Assembly: GCA_016201405.1 (NCBI GenBank)
Contig: JACQCZ010000015.1
Location: forward strand, 186,001-250,000
Length of the DNA: 64,000 nt
Source: Candidatus Acetothermia bacterium
Lineage (GTDB): Bacteria > Bipolaricaulota > Bipolaricaulia > RBG-16-55-9
Direction of reading: 5' to 3'
The notes beneath the pieces were generated by a model that saw only the letters and a list, made by a program, of their open reading frames with translations, searched no databases and was not told the origin of the DNA. This document shows positions 47,413 through 55,606 of this stretch, piece after piece (within the stretch, counting starts at the first letter, position 1; every line of letters begins with the position of its first letter). The translations under genes and the position numbers were made by a program.

Positions 47413-47592
47413 CTATTCGCCGCTGCGCTGCCTGTAGCGACGCGCCTGGCGCGGATCAACTCTGCGCATGCGGTCTAACAACTCTTTGGTGTTTGGACGC
47501 TCCACATCGGGAGTGCGTGGTCCATCGCCGCCGCCATCCCCTGGATTGCCCAACGGCTCGTCACTCTTGGGTCTTATCTTGCGCTCGGGCAT
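47413..47592 (-). CDS. pup: Prokaryotic ubiquitin-like protein (Pup/UBact)
   Basis: Protein tag for the proteasome, 59 residues, with no cysteine or aromatic core, so probably disordered. Gly/Asp/Pro-rich first half, then PDVERPNTKELLDRMRRVDP and the end YRQRSGE, which matches the UBact form known from non-actinobacterial lineages. It ends in Gly-Glu, so it can be ligated by PafA directly; many actinobacterial Pups end in Gln and need Dop first. ATG at 47592 is 8 bases after AGGAGG, while the GTG at 47601 overlaps that site and is rejected. It overlaps the 3' end of dop by 32 bases. Confidence 0.9.
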   Translation of the reverse strand: MPERKIRPKSDEPLGNPGDGGGDGPRTPDVERPNTKELLDRMRRVDPRQARRYRQRSGE

Positions 47593-49123
47593 CGGATGCA
47601 CCTCCTTGGCTTCCGGATTGCTTCTCGATTTCTCCCAGCAATTCTAGCACATCTTTGGGTGATGATACATTCAATATTTGATTGCTAAAAGGGGTCAAAT
47701 CTACATCAGCAATATTTCTCAGATCGATGCTGACTGCTCCCCCCCCAGAACCCAGCGTCAGTCTGCCCCAGTTTGCCGCTTTCACGTCCAAGCGTTGGGT
47801 GCAGAGCCCCCGGATCAATGCTCTTGTATTGCTGGGCGGGAATTCTATCGCGTGCTCAATCGCTCCATTCTGGGTGATTCGGCGCATGCTTTTGCTCTCT
47901 TCGAGCGGCCAGAAGAGCCCGTTTTGCAAATCAAGATTGTGATATTCGAGATCGAGGCTTCGCAGCAAATCCAGATTCTTCTGCCAATCCAGATCTTCTG
48001 CTTCAAGGAACGACTCCAGCAAATCATGCTTGGCCACCCAGTCCAGTCGATCTTTGAGCTTGAGCGGATCCTCCTCCAAGTCAGACAACACCTGGCTCCA
48101 CTCGCGGAGAAGCCAGTCTGTCTCCTCATCGCGCCCGGCAAATAGCTCACTGGCCGCGAGCCAGTATGCTCGCTGAATATCCAGGGCTGGGATGGTGGTG
48201 TTGTCGGCCACTTTCACAATCCAGCGCCACTCCTGATCAAATGAGATCTCTCGAATCGCCTGAACGGGATCCTTGAGCTCGACGGGCGCGCCATAGCCTC
48301 TTTCCAAAACATCGAGCACCAGCGCAGTTGTGCCAGCTTTTAGAGCAGTCGAATATTCGCACAGATTGGCATCCCCACAGATGACATGCAACCTTCGCCA
48401 TCGCGCTGAATTGGCATGAGGCTCATCACGTGTATTGACGAGCGGGCGGCGATGCAGGGTATCCACGCCCATGATCGTGTCCAAGAACTCAGCGCGCTGT
48501 GAGAGCTGATAGAAGATCTCACTCCGTCCTGATGCTCTCTCGACCCCGACTTTGCCTGCGCCAGTAAATAGAATGCGGGTCACAAAAAAAGGCAACAATC
48601 CATAAACCAACTGCTCAAATGGCATCTCGCGGGAGATGAGATAATTTTCATGTTGGCCATAGCTCATCCCGTGAAAGTCTGTGTTGTTCTTATAAATCGA
48701 GGCGACTCGTCCTGTCTGCTGCGTATAGGTTTGGCCTGCTCTTCGCAGAATGGACTCGCCAGCGCGATCATGGGTGACGAGGTCTTGCACCGAAAAACAT
48801 TCAGGCGTGCTGTACTCCGGATGGCCGTGGTCGTGATAGAAGCGTGCACCATTTGGCAGAACTCGGTCTACATGATTTTCGCCAGCGGAGCGCGGGCGAT
48901 AGCCACTGGATTTTTTTTCTACCTCGTCATCATCTGGATTGGTTGTGAGACTAGAGGCGCGAAAGCCGCGCACATCGCGTAGCGGGCTCTCATCACCATA
49001 ATCCCAGACGGCTTGGGAAGGTATGCACTGAACCAGCGCACGGGCCTCTTCCGCCAGATCTGAGACGTCGACGCCATCAATATAGAGACCATATTCGGTC
49101 TCCAGGCCCACGAGGCGCTTCAT
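47561..49123 (-). CDS. dop: Pup/UBact deamidase-depupylase
   Basis: Homologue of PafA that removes Pup/UBact from substrates, 520 residues. The start VGLETEYG is followed by the Dop-specific segment AVWDYGDESPLRDVRGF and an acidic loop (about 60-85), both absent from PafA. The catalytic aspartate D98 is in FYHDHGHPEYSTPE. YKNNTDFHGMSYGQHENYL and FTGAGKVGVE complete the active site. Since the tag already ends in Glu, only depupylation should be needed. It follows arc by 12 bases. Confidence 0.9.
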   Translation of the reverse strand: MKRLVGLETEYGLYIDGVDVSDLAEEARALVQCIPSQAVWDYGDESPLRDVRGFRASSLTTNPDDDEVEKKSSGYRPRSAGENHVDRVLPNGARFYHDHGHPEYSTPECFSVQDLVTHDRAGESILRRAGQTYTQQTGRVASIYKNNTDFHGMSYGQHENYLISREMPFEQLVYGLLPFFVTRILFTGAGKVGVERASGRSEIFYQLSQRAEFLDTIMGVDTLHRRPLVNTRDEPHANSARWRRLHVICGDANLCEYSTALKAGTTALVLDVLERGYGAPVELKDPVQAIREISFDQEWRWIVKVADNTTIPALDIQRAYWLAASELFAGRDEETDWLLREWSQVLSDLEEDPLKLKDRLDWVAKHDLLESFLEAEDLDWQKNLDLLRSLDLEYHNLDLQNGLFWPLEESKSMRRITQNGAIEHAIEFPPSNTRALIRGLCTQRLDVKAANWGRLTLGSGGGAVSIDLRNIADVDLTPFSNQILNVSSPKDVLELLGEIEKQSGSQGGASDARAQDKTQE

Positions 49124-49135
49124 TTGAAGGGATTT

Positions 49136-50854
49136 CTAAACAATGGATTCAAGATGGACGCGGCGCTCGCCATGCCGCACTGGGCGGACTTCCACAACAT
49201 CTTCGGGCTCGTAATCAATCAGTTTCAGCCAGTCTTCCAGATAATCTGTCTTGGGGAAGATCTCGTTCTCGTTGTACTCTGCTTCGATGGCTTTGTAGAT
49301 GTCTTCAGGGCTGATGCCCTCGCTCTCGCTCTTCCGATCAATGCAGCGCTGAATGGCAAAGTCCTTCGCGCGCTCGACTGTAGACATAATCAGAGCGCCA
49401 CTCACTAAATCATGCCAGTGCAGCACATCACGCCGGCCGCTTCGCAGCGCAACCTCAAGGAAAGCCGTCGCGGACTCTTCTCGAAAGAGATAGTCTGCTG
49501 CGCGCTGCACAATCGCCTCTTGTGCTTTCTCAACATCATTGCCATTCTCTTTGATCCAGTCTGCATCAAGCGGAATGTCATGTCGCAGATAGATCTTGAA
49601 GATTTGCGCCGATGCATCACGGCCTGGGCGGCCAATCTTCACTTTGCGGTCAATGCGCTCGGGACGCAATATTGCGGGATCAATATAGTCAGGGCGGTTG
49701 GAGGTGAGCATTACCACCACGTTCTCCAGACCGACTAACCCGTCCATCTCTGCTGCGAATTGCGGCACAACTGTATTGGCAATATTGAGTGCGCGTCCTG
49801 TGCCCCGTACGCGCAGCAGCGAATCCGCTTCATCAATAAAGATGAAAACAAGATTTCCCTCTTTGGCACGCTCACGGGCGGCGGCAAAGATCTCACGCAC
49901 CATGCGCTCCGTCTCGCCAAGCCACATATTGAGGAGCTGCGGCCCGTTGATCAGCATGAAATATTCACGCACATCGCGCCCTGCCCGCTGCTTGTATGCT
50001 TGAGTAAGTGTGTAAGCCGTCGCCTTGGCAATTAACGTCTTGCCACAGCCGGGCGGGCCGTACAATAAAATCCCTTTGAGCTGACGCTTGCCAAATTTCT
50101 TATATAACTCAGGATAGAGCAGCGGGCGCTCGATCGTGTCTTGAATGAGCCGAATTGCCTTTTCGTGACCGCCCACCTGATCCCAACTAATTTGCGGAAT
50201 CTCTTCGAGATAGTAGCCACGCACTTCAGATTTTTGAAAGTGTTCCAGTGCCACGCGAAGCGATGGCTCCAGGCGCACTTCGTCACCCGTTTTGAGTGTG
50301 CTCTTTTGAAGCTCTGCGGAACGAAGAATGATGCGTCCGGACATCTGGTTGCCGTCAAGCGAGACGCGCAGCCTGCCATCGGACATATTCTCAGAGACTT
50401 TTACAATTGGCCCCTCGGGGTGATAGCCCAAGTCCCCAATTACAGTAAAAGCCTCGTTCACTTTGACTCGAGTTCCAATTTTTAATTCTTTGGCATTGAG
50501 CTTGGGATCGACATTGGCATAGTACTCAGCATCACCCAAAGCTACATAGGCAATGCCATCGCTGGGTGACCCAAGGAATGTCCCGATGCGGTTTGCTGGA
50601 GCTGTCAGCTTCTTATAAACCTCTTCAAATTCACTCAAGGCCTGCCGCGCTTCATGCAGCTGATTTTCATCCACGCGAAGCTGATGATCGAGCAACTCTA
50701 GCAGATCCATGCGCGGATCATTCTGAGTCGTGCGCGCCAAGATCTCTTGCAGAATCGCACGCGCTCGCAGATGAGTCTCAAATCCGACTGGGCCCTCATC
50801 CTCGCGCTCGTCGCGGCGTGGATTCTCTGGGTTGATTCGTTTGCGGTTGGCCAT
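49136..50854 (-). CDS. arc: Proteasome-associated AAA+ ATPase (ARC/Mpa)
   Basis: Hexameric unfoldase that feeds tagged proteins to the 20S core. The 572 residues show an N-terminal charged tail and coiled coil (about 48-85) that in Mpa binds Pup, two OB domains (about 86-215), then the AAA domain with GPPGCGKT (266-273), FIFIDEADSLL and SNRPDYIDPAILRPERIDRK. The C-terminus is HLESIV and does not show the GQYL end used by Mpa or an HbYX motif to open the alpha ring. GAGGTGAGAG precedes the ATG. It is the first gene of the arc-dop-pup-prcB run. Confidence 0.93.
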   Translation of the reverse strand: MANRKRINPENPRRDEREDEGPVGFETHLRARAILQEILARTTQNDPRMDLLELLDHQLRVDENQLHEARQALSEFEEVYKKLTAPANRIGTFLGSPSDGIAYVALGDAEYYANVDPKLNAKELKIGTRVKVNEAFTVIGDLGYHPEGPIVKVSENMSDGRLRVSLDGNQMSGRIILRSAELQKSTLKTGDEVRLEPSLRVALEHFQKSEVRGYYLEEIPQISWDQVGGHEKAIRLIQDTIERPLLYPELYKKFGKRQLKGILLYGPPGCGKTLIAKATAYTLTQAYKQRAGRDVREYFMLINGPQLLNMWLGETERMVREIFAAARERAKEGNLVFIFIDEADSLLRVRGTGRALNIANTVVPQFAAEMDGLVGLENVVVMLTSNRPDYIDPAILRPERIDRKVKIGRPGRDASAQIFKIYLRHDIPLDADWIKENGNDVEKAQEAIVQRAADYLFREESATAFLEVALRSGRRDVLHWHDLVSGALIMSTVERAKDFAIQRCIDRKSESEGISPEDIYKAIEAEYNENEIFPKTDYLEDWLKLIDYEPEDVVEVRPVRHGERRVHLESIV

Positions 50855-51087: not shown

Positions 51088-51843
51088 TCAATCGTATAGC
51101 CCAAGCAACTCTCCAAGTCGCCTCATCACCGCTCCTAGCTCACAGGGGATGACCAGATCGGCCTGCGCGTCGATAGGCGTCTTGTCGCGGTTGATCACGA
51201 CAACTCGCGCTCCCTTATATTTTGCCTGTGGAACCAAATCGGCAACGGGATAGACTTCTAAAGATGCGCCAAGCACGAGCAATAGATCAGACTTCAGTAC
51301 TTCCTGAACCCCTTTCCTAAATGCTGGCGGCATCATCTCCCCAAAGAGGACGACATTGGGCTTGAGCAGGCCATTGCAAACAGAGCAGCGCGGGATGCCC
51401 TGCTCTCTGACTTTTGCAAAGAGATCTGAGATCTCAATTTCATCTCCGCACCCAATACAGACACCCTGCTTGTAGCTTCCATGGACTTCATAGAGCCTCT
51501 GAGAGCCTGCGGCACGATGAAGATCGTCAATATTCTGAGTAATCAGAGCTTTTAATAAGCCGCGCTCTTCCAGTTTCACGAGAGTGGTATGAGTGATGTT
51601 GGGCTCTGCCGCACTGAGCTTTGCAAAGCGCCATTGCCAGAACTCATAAAACCCCTGTGTATCGCGGAGAAAGCCTTCCAGAGATGCCACTTTAAAGGGG
51701 TCGATCATCTTCCAGAGGCCGCAAGCCGCGCTACGAAAATCTGGAATGCCTGATTCCGTAGATACCCCAGCGCCCGTGAGCGCCACCGGATAGCGCGCGC
51801 GCTTGAGCCACTGGATAAGTTGTTGAATAGCCCGATCGCTCAT
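51088..51843 (-). CDS. cobB: Sir2 family NAD-dependent protein deacylase
   Basis: Sirtuin, 251 residues. NAD-binding GAGVSTESGIPDFRS, TQNIDDLHRAAG, the catalytic His in EVHGS, zinc cysteines CIGC and CSVC, then KPNVVLFGEMMP and LGASLEVYPVADLV. Removes acyl groups from lysines using NAD. It has the LFGE variant of the GE loop. Stands alone, divergent from the TrpB-like gene. Confidence 0.93.
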   Translation of the reverse strand: MSDRAIQQLIQWLKRARYPVALTGAGVSTESGIPDFRSAACGLWKMIDPFKVASLEGFLRDTQGFYEFWQWRFAKLSAAEPNITHTTLVKLEERGLLKALITQNIDDLHRAAGSQRLYEVHGSYKQGVCIGCGDEIEISDLFAKVREQGIPRCSVCNGLLKPNVVLFGEMMPPAFRKGVQEVLKSDLLLVLGASLEVYPVADLVPQAKYKGARVVVINRDKTPIDAQADLVIPCELGAVMRRLGELLGLYD

Positions 51844-51970
51844 GCGCTTTAAAAGAATAGCTCAGTCACCCTCGGGATTCCAGCCCAGGCGCTCAGATCT
51901 GAAAGTTGCGTCCGGTCGTTCTCTTGCCTAAGATTTCCCCATTCAGACCTACATCAGAATCAGGTGAAGC

Positions 51971-53263
51971 ATGGCTAGAGACGACACACGCAAGAGAGGC
52001 GTTTCGCAACCCGTCGAAGAGGCCGAGCAGAAGCCAGAGGAGCCGAGTGGCCAGCCTGTCAAAGGATACTTTGGTGAGTTTGGCGGGCAAGAGGTGCCTG
52101 AGGCCTTGTTGCCCGCGCTCCAGCAGCTTGAAGCGACCTTTCTCGAGTGTTACAAGGATGACCGCTTCCAGCGTGAGTTTCGGACTCTGCTTTCCGATTA
52201 TGGCGGAAGGCCAAGCGCCCTCTATCATGCCCGGAGGCTTAGCCAGTGGGTTGGTGGTGCTCGCATCTACCTCAAGCGCGAAGACCTGCTCAATGGAGGC
52301 GCGCACCTCATCAACAGCGCCATCGGCCAGGCGCTTCTAGCAAAGAAGATGGGCAAGAAGCGGCTGATCACAGAGAGTTCCTCTGGAGAGCAAGGGGTGG
52401 TGGCTGCCATGGTCGCAGCCATGGTGGGGCTTCCAATTGAAATCTGGATGGGCCAGCGTGACTTCGACCGCCAACGCCGCGCTACCTTCCGCATGAAACT
52501 GCTCGGCGCGAAGATCCGAGTCATCCCTGGTGCAGGCTGGCAAGAGGCAATCTCCGAGACGATGCGAGATTGGGCTGCCCAATGGGAAAACACATATTAT
52601 TTGATGTGCTCCGTAGTTGGACCGCATCCTTATCCGTGGATCATCCGCGAATTTCAGCGGGTGATCGGAGATGAGCTCAAAGGACAGATTTTGAGAAAAG
52701 AGCGCCGGCTTCCCGACTCGCTGATCGCATCGATGGGAGGGGGGAGTTGTGCCATCGGACTCTTCTACCCATTTGTGAGCGAAGAATTTGTGCACTTAGT
52801 GGTAGCAGAGCCAGGTGGAGCCAGCTATGAAGAAGAGGCCGCGCTGGGTCAGTGGCGTGTTGGAATCTTTCATGGAATGAGAAGTCTAGTTTTGCAGGAT
52901 CATCAGGGGAATGTTAATGTGCGCCGCAGCGTTGCGCCCGATCTCTGCTATCCAGCGATTGGGCCTGAGCATGCGCATCTCCGCAGCACCGGCCGCGAAG
53001 AGCGCGTGGTTGTTCGTGACCCCCAAGCACTGGAAGCATTCCGGCGGCTCTGTCAGCTTGAAGGGATCGCGGCATCGTTAGAGTCTGCTCATGCACTCTC
53101 CGCTGCATTTGAATGGGCCAAACGAATCGGCGTTGATGGACTGATTGTGGTCGCGCTCACCGGAAGAAGCGAAAAAGACTTGGAAGTTGTGCTACGAGCC
53201 TCCGGCAGCCCGACTCCCGCCGGTGAGCTCCGACAAGAGCAGACGCCCGCAACCGAACAGTAA
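51971..53263 (+). CDS. Tryptophan synthase beta-like protein lacking the PLP lysine
   Basis: A 430-residue homologue of tryptophan synthase beta (TrpB). It keeps the overall order of TrpB motifs: GYFGEFGGQEVPE, GGRPSALYHARRLS, IYLKREDLLNGGAHL, GQALLAKKMGKKRLITE, GPHPYP, MGGGSCAIG, YPAIGPEHAHL, LEGIAASLESAHAL and ALTGRSEKD. The lysine that binds PLP in TrpB (GAHKxN) is Leu113 here, and the phosphate cup GGGSN is GGGSC. The acid of the E109 position (E135) and the LEGI glutamate remain. It has a 30-residue hydrophilic N-terminal extension. No trpA or other trp gene is near. It may be a pseudoenzyme or have new chemistry. Confidence 0.82.
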   Translation: MARDDTRKRGVSQPVEEAEQKPEEPSGQPVKGYFGEFGGQEVPEALLPALQQLEATFLECYKDDRFQREFRTLLSDYGGRPSALYHARRLSQWVGGARIYLKREDLLNGGAHLINSAIGQALLAKKMGKKRLITESSSGEQGVVAAMVAAMVGLPIEIWMGQRDFDRQRRATFRMKLLGAKIRVIPGAGWQEAISETMRDWAAQWENTYYLMCSVVGPHPYPWIIREFQRVIGDELKGQILRKERRLPDSLIASMGGGSCAIGLFYPFVSEEFVHLVVAEPGGASYEEEAALGQWRVGIFHGMRSLVLQDHQGNVNVRRSVAPDLCYPAIGPEHAHLRSTGREERVVVRDPQALEAFRRLCQLEGIAASLESAHALSAAFEWAKRIGVDGLIVVALTGRSEKDLEVVLRASGSPTPAGELRQEQTPATEQ

Positions 53264-53772: not shown

Positions 53773-53848
53773 GCCGACGTAGCTCAGTTGGTAGAGCAAC
53801 GGTTTTGTAAACCGTGGGTCGTGGGTTCGAGTCCCTCCGTCGGCTCCA
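53773..53848 (+). tRNA. tRNA-Thr (TGT)
   Basis: Acceptor GCCGACG/CGTCGGC, anticodon stem ACGGT/ACCGT with loop TTTGTAA (anticodon TGT), T arm loop TTCGAGT, encoded CCA. First tRNA of the cluster upstream of tuf. Confidence 0.96.
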
Positions 53849-53892
53849 ATCAAGTTTTAATTTGGTGCATGAGTTTGTAGATATCTCGTGCT

Positions 53893-53974
53893 GGATGGGT
53901 ACCCAAGTGGCCAAAGGGGCCTGGCTGTAAACCAGGTGGCTCTGCCTTCGGGGGTTCGAATCCCTCCCCATCCA
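53893..53974 (+). tRNA. tRNA-Tyr (GTA)
   Basis: Class II tRNA with a long variable arm (TGGC..GCC). Acceptor GGATGGG/CCCATCC, anticodon stem CCTGG/CCAGG with loop CTGTAAA (anticodon GTA), T loop TTCGAAT. The gene is followed by CCC, so CCA is not encoded. Confidence 0.95.
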
Positions 53975-53979
53975 CCCGT

Positions 53980-54008
53980 TTGCCGTCCGGGAGGCATTTC
54001 GCTATAAT
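53980..54008 (+). promoter_or_regulatory. Promoter of tRNA-Thr(GGT)-tuf
   Basis: TTGCCG (53980-53985), 17-base spacer, perfect TATAAT (54003-54008), 11 bases before the tRNA. It should drive tRNA-Thr and tuf, and perhaps the genes beyond. Confidence 0.82.
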
Positions 54009-54019
54009 GGCCAGACTCC

Positions 54020-54091
54020 GCCCGTGTAGCTCAGTGGCAGAGCGTTACCTTGGTAAGGTAAAGGTCGTCGGTTCAATCCCGACCGCGGGCT
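54020..54091 (+). tRNA. tRNA-Thr (GGT)
   Basis: Acceptor GCCCGTG/CGCGGGC, anticodon stem TTACC/GGTAA with loop TTGGTAA (anticodon GGT), T arm GTCGG/CCGAC. CCA is not encoded. It lies 73 bases before tuf, as thrT lies before tufB in many bacteria. Confidence 0.96.
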
Positions 54092-54164
54092 CCCAAAACA
54101 TGTAGGGCTGAAGAATATTTACTAGTCTCTTCGGTCATTGAGAACGAAACCCAAGGAGGAGTTT

Positions 54165-55364
54165 ATGTCGAAGGGGAAATTCGCGCGAACAAAGCCGCAT
54201 GTGAACGTAGGAACGATTGGCCATATCGACCACGGAAAGACAACCCTCACCTCTGCGATCGTCTCCGTCCTGTCCCAAAAGGGCCAAGCGACGATGAAGT
54301 CATATGCTGAAATCGCCAAGGGTGGTGTCGTTCGTGACGCATCCAAGATTGTGACGGTGCAGGTTGCACATGTGGAATACGAATCGGACAAGCGCCATTA
54401 TGCCCACATTGATTGTCCGGGTCACGCGGACTACGTCAAGAACATGATCACCGGCGCAGCCCAAATGGATGGCGCCATTCTCGTCGTTGCTGCCGATGAG
54501 GGACCCATGCCACAAACACGTGAGCACGTGCTCTTAGCCCGTCAGGTCAACGTCCCGTACATCGTTGTATTCATGAATAAAGTCGACCTTGTAGATGATC
54601 CAGAGCTTGTGGACCTCGTTGAGATCGAGGTGCGAGAGCTTCTGAGCAAATATGATTTTCCAGGCGATGATGTGCCGGTCATCCGCGGCTCCGCCAAGGC
54701 AGCCCAGGAGAACCCGAAGGATGCCAATGCGACCAAGTGCATCATGGATCTCATGACTGCGCTTGACAACTCAATTCCAGAGCCTACGCGCGAGACCGAG
54801 AAGCCATTCTTGATGTCAATAGAAGATGTCTTCTCTATTAAAGGGCGTGGGACAGTGGCAACAGGCCGTGTCGAGCGTGGAATCATCAAACCTGGCCAGG
54901 AAGTCGAGATCGTCGGTCTTCGCGAGAAGTCTGTAAAGACAGTCGCCACCAGTCTGGAGATGTTCAACAAGACGCTGGATGAAGTCATTCCAGGGGACAA
55001 CGTGGGCGTCTTGCTCCGAGGTGTGGAGCGCGAGGACATCGACCGCGGTATGGTGCTTGCCAAGCCTGGTTCTATCACGCCGCACACCAAGTTTGAGGGT
55101 GAAGTCTACGTGCTGTCAAAAGATGAAGGTGGCCGCCACACGCCATTCTTCACCGGATACAAGCCCCAGTTCTTTTTCAGAACGACAGACGTTACGGGCT
55201 CTCTCTATCTGCCAGATGGCGTAGAGATGGTGATGCCAGGTGACAATATCAAGATTCGTGGCGAATTGATCAAGCACATCGCCATGGAAGAGGGTGTGCG
55301 CTTTGCCATCCGCGAGGGCGGACGCACCGTTGGTGCCGGCGTCGTGACCAAGGTGACTGAGTAA
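54165..55364 (+). CDS. tuf: Translation elongation factor Tu
   Basis: GTPase that brings aminoacyl-tRNA to the ribosome, 399 residues. G1 [10 protein letters not shown]3 [13 protein letters not shown]4 NKVD and G5 GSAKA are all present, and the protein ends in the normal beta-barrel domains. AAGGAGG precedes ATG at 54165. It is the only tuf in the window and is followed 7 bases on by rpmG. Confidence 0.98.
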
Positions 55365-55371
55365 ATCAATC

Positions 55372-55518
55372 ATGACTGAACATGTGACTATGGCGTGTAC
55401 GGAGTGCCGCCGACGCAACTACCACACCACGAAGAACGTCAAGACGATTCGTGCCAAGCTGGAGTTGAAGAAGTACTGTCGGTGGTGCCGCAAGCATACG
55501 CCTCACAAAGAGGCGTAA
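55372..55518 (+). CDS. rpmG: 50S ribosomal protein L33
   Basis: Ribosomal protein of 48 residues, starting [20 protein letters not shown] and ending [14 protein letters not shown]. Four cysteines (CTEC, CRWC) make it the zinc-binding form. It sits between tuf and tRNA-Trp, its common place. Confidence 0.95.
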
Positions 55519-55530
55519 AGAAAGGGCGAT

Positions 55531-55606
55531 AGGCCCGTAGCTCAATTGGCAGAGCGACGGTCTCCAAAACCGTAGGTTGGGGGTTCAAGTCCCTCCGGGC
55601 CTGCCA
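55531..55606 (+). tRNA. tRNA-Trp (CCA)
   Basis: Acceptor AGGCCCG/CGGGCCT, anticodon stem ACGGT/ACCGT with loop CTCCAAA (anticodon CCA), T loop TTCAAGT, encoded CCA end. It lies between rpmG and secE as in many bacteria. Confidence 0.96.

Follow-up and report, generated by a model that had tools for sequence, protein, structure and literature searches.

Lysine-less TrpB homologues of Bipolaricaulota, probable pseudoenzymes retained after loss of the Schiff-base lysine

A gene in a 64-kb stretch of Bipolaricaulota DNA (the window, meaning the whole stretch that was analysed) encodes a TrpB homologue in which leucine stands in place of the lysine that binds PLP. Eight further TrpBs of the same phylum lack this lysine, and both the loss of the lysine and the retention of the proteins are well supported. 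Judging from their sequences, the lysine-less TrpBs are probably pseudoenzymes that have been kept without tryptophan synthase activity. Tryptophan synthase is a standard example of allostery and of substrate channelling; to our knowledge, the PLP lysine of TrpB has been treated as universal. A literature search, which reached few subscription journals, found no description of natural lysine-less TrpBs. The window gene and its altered sites are as follows, with residue numbers taken from Salmonella TrpB where canonical residues are named.

51971..53263, plus strand: lysine-less TrpB homologue of 430 aa, an intact ORF without an adjacent trpA (TIGR00263, PDB and Foldseek matches).
52307..52309, plus strand: Leu113 (CTC) replacing the Schiff-base Lys87, Salmonella numbering (codon and alignment).
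52373..52396, plus strand: substrate-carboxylate loop ESSSGEQG, canonical ETGAGQHG (alignment).
52538..52546, plus strand: TrpA-contact loop lost, with two residues deleted, Lys167 replaced by Gln191 and GWQE where the canonical sequence is TLKD (alignment).
52736..52750, plus strand: phosphate cup GGGSC (N236C), glycines kept (alignment).
52946..52948, plus strand: Asp305 replaced by Cys326, Arg141-Asp305 salt bridge lost (alignment; role from PMC9512447).
53156..53179, plus strand: LTGRSEKD replacing LSGRGDKD (S377T, G380S, D381E) (alignment).

The ORF begins at 51971; the start at 52200 given in the first-pass annotation falls inside the gene. The frame is intact, as that annotation had stated, with 430 codons and no stop or frameshift. 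A profile search with TIGR00263 (trpB) scored 441.3 bits over residues 32-409, above the cut-off of 392.45, and solved TrpB structures in the PDB aligned across most of the length of the protein (E=6e-124). The protein has the fold of PF00291 (PALP, fold type II PLP; 108.8 bits), and its AlphaFold model is a TrpB fold, characterized by a Foldseek match to PDB TrpB with E=2.5e-46 and a target TM of 0.90. It is not a member of the TrpB2 family (TIGR01415), against which it scored 118.5 bits, below the cut-off of 518.85. Model confidence is low around residues 281-340, with pLDDT of 41-58 in the lowest blocks of the Asp305/interface region compared with 84-92 in the same rows of a canonical control. 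The window protein thus shares with canonical TrpB (TIGR00263) the full-length homology, the fold, the above-cut-off score and the position of the locus, but differs from it in the absence of the Schiff-base lysine and in an altered carboxylate loop, Asn236, Asp305, Ser377 and TrpA contact.

Inspection of an alignment of 103 TrpBs revealed lysine in the Lys87 column of 94 sequences, the only exceptions being the window protein and its eight relatives. Residues were numbered on a Salmonella TrpB sequence whose landmark residues agree with the known ones. Codon and alignment both bear out the earlier reading of CTC as Leu113 where the PLP lysine is expected. The reading also withstands the objection that the lysine may have moved: the alignment contains no replacement pocket lysine in any of the nine lysine-less proteins, and where the window protein has lysine at columns in which it is rare (<10%), all of these lie in the N-terminal extension. 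The window copy is known from a single genome, and the change might reflect an error in the reads or the assembly, or a lysine that has slipped to an adjoining position. The chance of this is negligible: CTC differs from AAR by more than one base, the protein carries 30 coherent conserved-column changes and a clean two-residue deletion, and the lysine is also missing in eight other genomes.

Other changes surround the lost lysine. The GGGSC phosphate cup in place of GGGSN, and APDLCYP in place of SAGLDYP, are as first described, whereas the accompanying statement that everything else is well kept holds only in part. Glu109 and Glu350 are indeed kept, as are His86, Arg141 and Arg379, but the window protein departs from canonical TrpB at 30 of 120 conserved columns, a column counting as conserved if 95% or more of 92 canonical TrpBs agree in it. 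The active site is hit hardest, with 14 of 27 columns changed compared with 16 of 93 elsewhere (Fisher p=5e-4); the list of active-site columns was fixed from structural knowledge, independently of the outcome. The carboxylate loop retains Glu109 and carries T110S, G111S, A112S, Q114E and H115Q, and Lys167 is altered along with the loop, Asp305 and Ser377, so that the catalytic and allosteric set of TrpB is incomplete. The Arg141-Asp305 salt bridge closes the TrpB beta subunit, and Lys87 forms the aldimines and carries out proton transfers (PMC9512447). Because these steps depend on the lysine, the window protein, having none for the internal aldimine and the proton transfers, should not make tryptophan. 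Ordinary amino-acid chemistry is made less likely in the window copy by the changes to the carboxylate loop, Asp305 and Ser377.

The surroundings of the gene point to its origin.

51088..51843, minus strand: Sir2-family deacylase gene, divergent neighbour that marks the ancestral trpBA place (Pfam and synteny).
51844..51970, no strand: divergent intergenic region of 127 bp, the presumed promoter region of sir2 and trpB.

The lone trpB of the window is flanked by the divergent Sir2 gene on one side and by tuf-secE-nusG-L11-L1 on the other. A Sir2 gene is likewise divergent beside trpBA in genus g9 and lies close to trpFBA in genome G013, and in G004, a member of the window's family, trpBA-aroK-aroB-aroQ is followed by nusG, L11 and L1. 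As the Sir2 and nusG-L11-L1 flanks match the trpBA loci of relatives, the window gene is most likely the vertically inherited old trpB at its ancestral place, from which trpA and aroKBQ have gone. On the pseudoenzyme reading, this old trpB would have turned pseudoenzyme without leaving the trpBA place. The earlier remark that no trpA is near extends to the whole 64-kb window, where we found neither trpA nor remnants of trpA or the aro genes, the best matches being short and at unrelated places. RNA elements near trpB are tRNAs only; the region directly downstream (53773-55606) holds tRNA-Thr, tRNA-Tyr, tRNA-Thr, tuf and tRNA-Trp.

The window genome does have a normal trpB elsewhere, a point that the first-pass annotation had left to be checked. 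The assembly (G000; 2.0 Mb in 19 contigs, 90.8% complete) encodes a second TrpB with the canonical GAHKIN motif in a trpD-trpC-trpB-trpA operon (contig C18, L060 6858-10686). In the tree, this TrpB clusters with those of other phyla (98/99), and the operon was therefore probably acquired from outside the phylum; it would now supply the genome with canonical TrpB. Contamination was rejected as the origin of this contig: asnS is 68% identical to that of the family relative G004, and the GC content matches the genome. TrpE, TrpF and chorismate synthase were not found in the 90.8% complete assembly; trpDCBA might depend on an external supply of anthranilate, unless the missing genes are encoded in the tenth of the genome that is not assembled.

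We searched 100 genomes of the phylum for lysine-less TrpBs, as the first-pass annotation had suggested for proteins with GAHL, and found the eight relatives, all in family f4 of the same order as the window. The motif is GAHA, GAHT or GAHS in genus g9 and GSHS in genus g7. In each of these eight genomes the lysine-less protein is the sole TrpB, encoded directly upstream of trpA, and no TrpB2 that could substitute for it scored above the cut-off. The g9 proteins retain His86, Glu109, the GGGSN cup, Glu350 and Ser377 and are changed at only 1-6 of the 120 conserved columns; G017 has a single change, the lysine. The g7 proteins have E109A and an altered phosphate cup as well, with Asp305 kept. 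Five of the eight show scarcely any change besides the lysine. Genus g9 retains the TrpA contact loop and g7 most of it, and the g9 TrpA keeps Glu49/Asp60. Pairwise dN/dS is 0.07-0.11 for the lysine-less trpB and 0.06-0.14 for trpA, values like those of the neighbours sir2 and guaA. Thus, the lysine-less trpB and the trpA of g7 and g9 are under strong purifying selection. Among 78 named TrpBs from outside Bipolaricaulota (of 80 loci), a non-random set picked by pattern from these proteins, none is lysine-less.

Individual genomes of the two genera differ in further respects. The TrpA of G007 (L048 3284-4105), beside a lysine-less TrpB, has Gly for Glu49 and Glu for Asp60, and from sequence both subunits there appear catalytically dead yet intact. 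In the TrpB of G016 (L054 9800-11020), Thr occurs naturally at Lys87, as it does by mutation in the classic Salmonella K87T. Neither trpA nor trpB was found in G014 (genus g9, 87% complete), where the pair is either dispensable or was missed in the bin.

Most of the remaining tryptophan pathway is missing from the hosts of the paired genes. None of the eight g7/g9 assemblies has TrpC, TrpD, TrpE, TrpF or any chorismate-binding enzyme, and seven also lack chorismate synthase (G016 is the exception); control genomes were positive in every search. The full pathway set is present in most genomes of the order whose TrpB bears the lysine, and none of these enzymes is missing from G004, G006, G008 and G013, in which the old locus holds a complete lysine TrpB. 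Incomplete bins are thus an unlikely cause of the missing genes.

The TrpBs of g7 and g9 form one clade (100/99), the sister of which, G013, keeps the lysine. The best tree places the window protein with G004 (85/86), apart from g7 and g9, which implies two losses of the lysine; a single clade of all nine lysine-less TrpBs is not rejected (AU p=0.088). The window branch is long (1.43, compared with 0.11 for G004) and, together with the AU result, this makes its position in the tree uncertain. The branch length may also be taken to mean that the window copy is decaying, as an old trpB that drifted after the foreign trpDCBA arrived and is not yet broken. Such decay would account for the 16 conserved-column changes that lie outside the active site among the 30, for the trpA and aroKBQ already missing from the locus and for the low AlphaFold confidence relative to the canonical control. 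However, a neutral simulation run to equal conserved changes expects 4.3 stops, with a probability of 0.015 for none even with indels not counted, and the window gene has none. Codon-position divergence from G004 is still 0.37/0.26/0.62, and the active site has taken a disproportionate share of the changes. Selection is also evident in the lysine-less relatives, where it was measured, the window copy being without a close orthologue. We therefore regard late decay of the window copy as unlikely, although it is the strongest competitor of the reading given below.

The first-pass annotation had named a regulatory pseudoenzyme, a non-covalent PLP binder and a new activity as options, which are indistinguishable by sequence. 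The pseudoenzyme gains support from the lysine loss, from the canonical TrpB elsewhere in the genome and from the purifying selection in the relatives, but not from the otherwise intact active site once ascribed to the window protein. A loss of the same kind would have taken place in the sister family, where the lysine-less TrpB is still paired with TrpA and selected despite the lost pathway. Some observations sit less well with this interpretation: part of the change in the window protein lies outside the active site and its branch is very long, G014 suggests that the pair is not indispensable unless it was missed in the bin, and the G007 TrpA does not fit TrpA activation in that genome.

Two roles for the pseudoenzymes are conceivable, and we offer them tentatively. 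In the TrpA-paired clade, the beta subunit may be a non-catalytic or substrate-locked partner. Structures of Salmonella K87T contain external aldimines, with both subunits closed (PMC9512447). A PLP-bound amino acid in the lysine-less proteins would likewise stay as the external aldimine and hold the complex closed. The pair could then be an amino-acid-responsive switch on TrpA, or a TrpA-type lyase whose substrate is not IGP made de novo. The g9 beta subunit, the other site residues of which are intact, should hold PLP and an amino acid and lock TrpA closed, as a switch or activator. As g7 and g9 lack TrpC, no IGP would be made de novo, implying another substrate or a non-catalytic role; for G007, the loss of Glu49 and Asp60 from TrpA points to the latter. 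The window protein, which has lost the TrpA loop and the Arg141-Asp305 switch, would work alone, probably in regulation, and is most plausibly a protein that binds a ligand independently of TrpA.

The closest precedent for a retained TrpB paralogue without tryptophan synthase activity is the TSB-like protein of core eudicots, a dead TrpB kept to activate TrpA (PMC12727527). Its consistent changes are Glu109 to Ala and Asp305 to Glu, and A190E restores some tryptophan synthesis (PMC12727527), a rescue which implies that TSB-like must keep the PLP lysine. The lysine-less proteins might work in the same way, by binding TrpA and activating it to release indole. Apart from the precedent itself, this would be consistent with the E109A common to TSB-like and g7, with the adjacent trpA and with the contact loop of g9 and, largely, g7. 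However, the two defining changes of TSB-like spare the lysine that the Bipolaricaulota proteins have lost, and TSB-like acts via its TrpA partner, whereas the window protein has a shortened contact loop and no Lys167. Its Glu109 is kept and its Asp305 is Cys rather than Glu, while g7 combines E109A with an unchanged Asp305. The TrpA of G000 belongs to the foreign operon, g7 and g9 have no TrpC for de novo IGP, and the G007 TrpA is without its catalytic pair. The hosts also differ, being plants for TSB-like and bacteria mostly without the remaining pathway here. A TSB-like role is accordingly very unlikely.

A further alternative is a new enzymatic activity that dispenses with the Schiff-base lysine, with PLP/PMP bound non-covalently or with no cofactor. 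The g9 TrpA/TrpB would then be a working lysine-free PLP/PMP enzyme on a non-tryptophan substrate, and the window protein a further-diverged, TrpA-independent version. The conserved g9 site residues, the Glu49/Asp60 of the g9 TrpA, the strong purifying selection and the sole difference of G017 at the lysine are all compatible with this. On the other hand, the residue in place of the lysine is not constant, being A, S or T in g9, S in g7 and L in the window, and is therefore unlikely to take part in the chemistry itself; g7 lacks Glu109 too and has a changed phosphate cup, and Salmonella K87T occurs as external aldimines (PMC9512447). We consider a new activity of this kind quite unlikely.

Salmonella TrpB K87T (PMC9512447) is altered at the same residue as the lysine-less proteins, and G016 even has the same Thr, but K87T is a laboratory mutant of a working enzyme, whereas the lysine is naturally absent here across two genera. 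In Chlamydia trachomatis, trpBA likewise outlived the upstream pathway and one of its subunits is catalytically inactive, but the inactive subunit is TrpA, and TrpB uses scavenged indole to make tryptophan (PMC3937554); in g7 and g9 it is TrpB that would be dead. A selected lysine-less TrpB beside trpA without the pathway suggests that the alpha-beta complex has a function beyond tryptophan synthesis, and these TrpBs are natural K87T/A/S proteins for testing to what extent the beta subunit can sense ligands or serve as a switch. In annotation pipelines such genes would be labelled tryptophan synthase, as the window protein passes the TrpB cut-off, and metabolic reconstructions would thus wrongly credit Bipolaricaulota with the last tryptophan step.

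Beyond the Sir2 gene, the minus strand of the window (47561-50854) carries a Pup-ligase family gene (PafA/Dop type) adjoining a gene for a proteasomal AAA ATPase (Mpa/ARC-like), as identified by Pfam, which together represent a bacterial Pup-proteasome locus in Bipolaricaulota.
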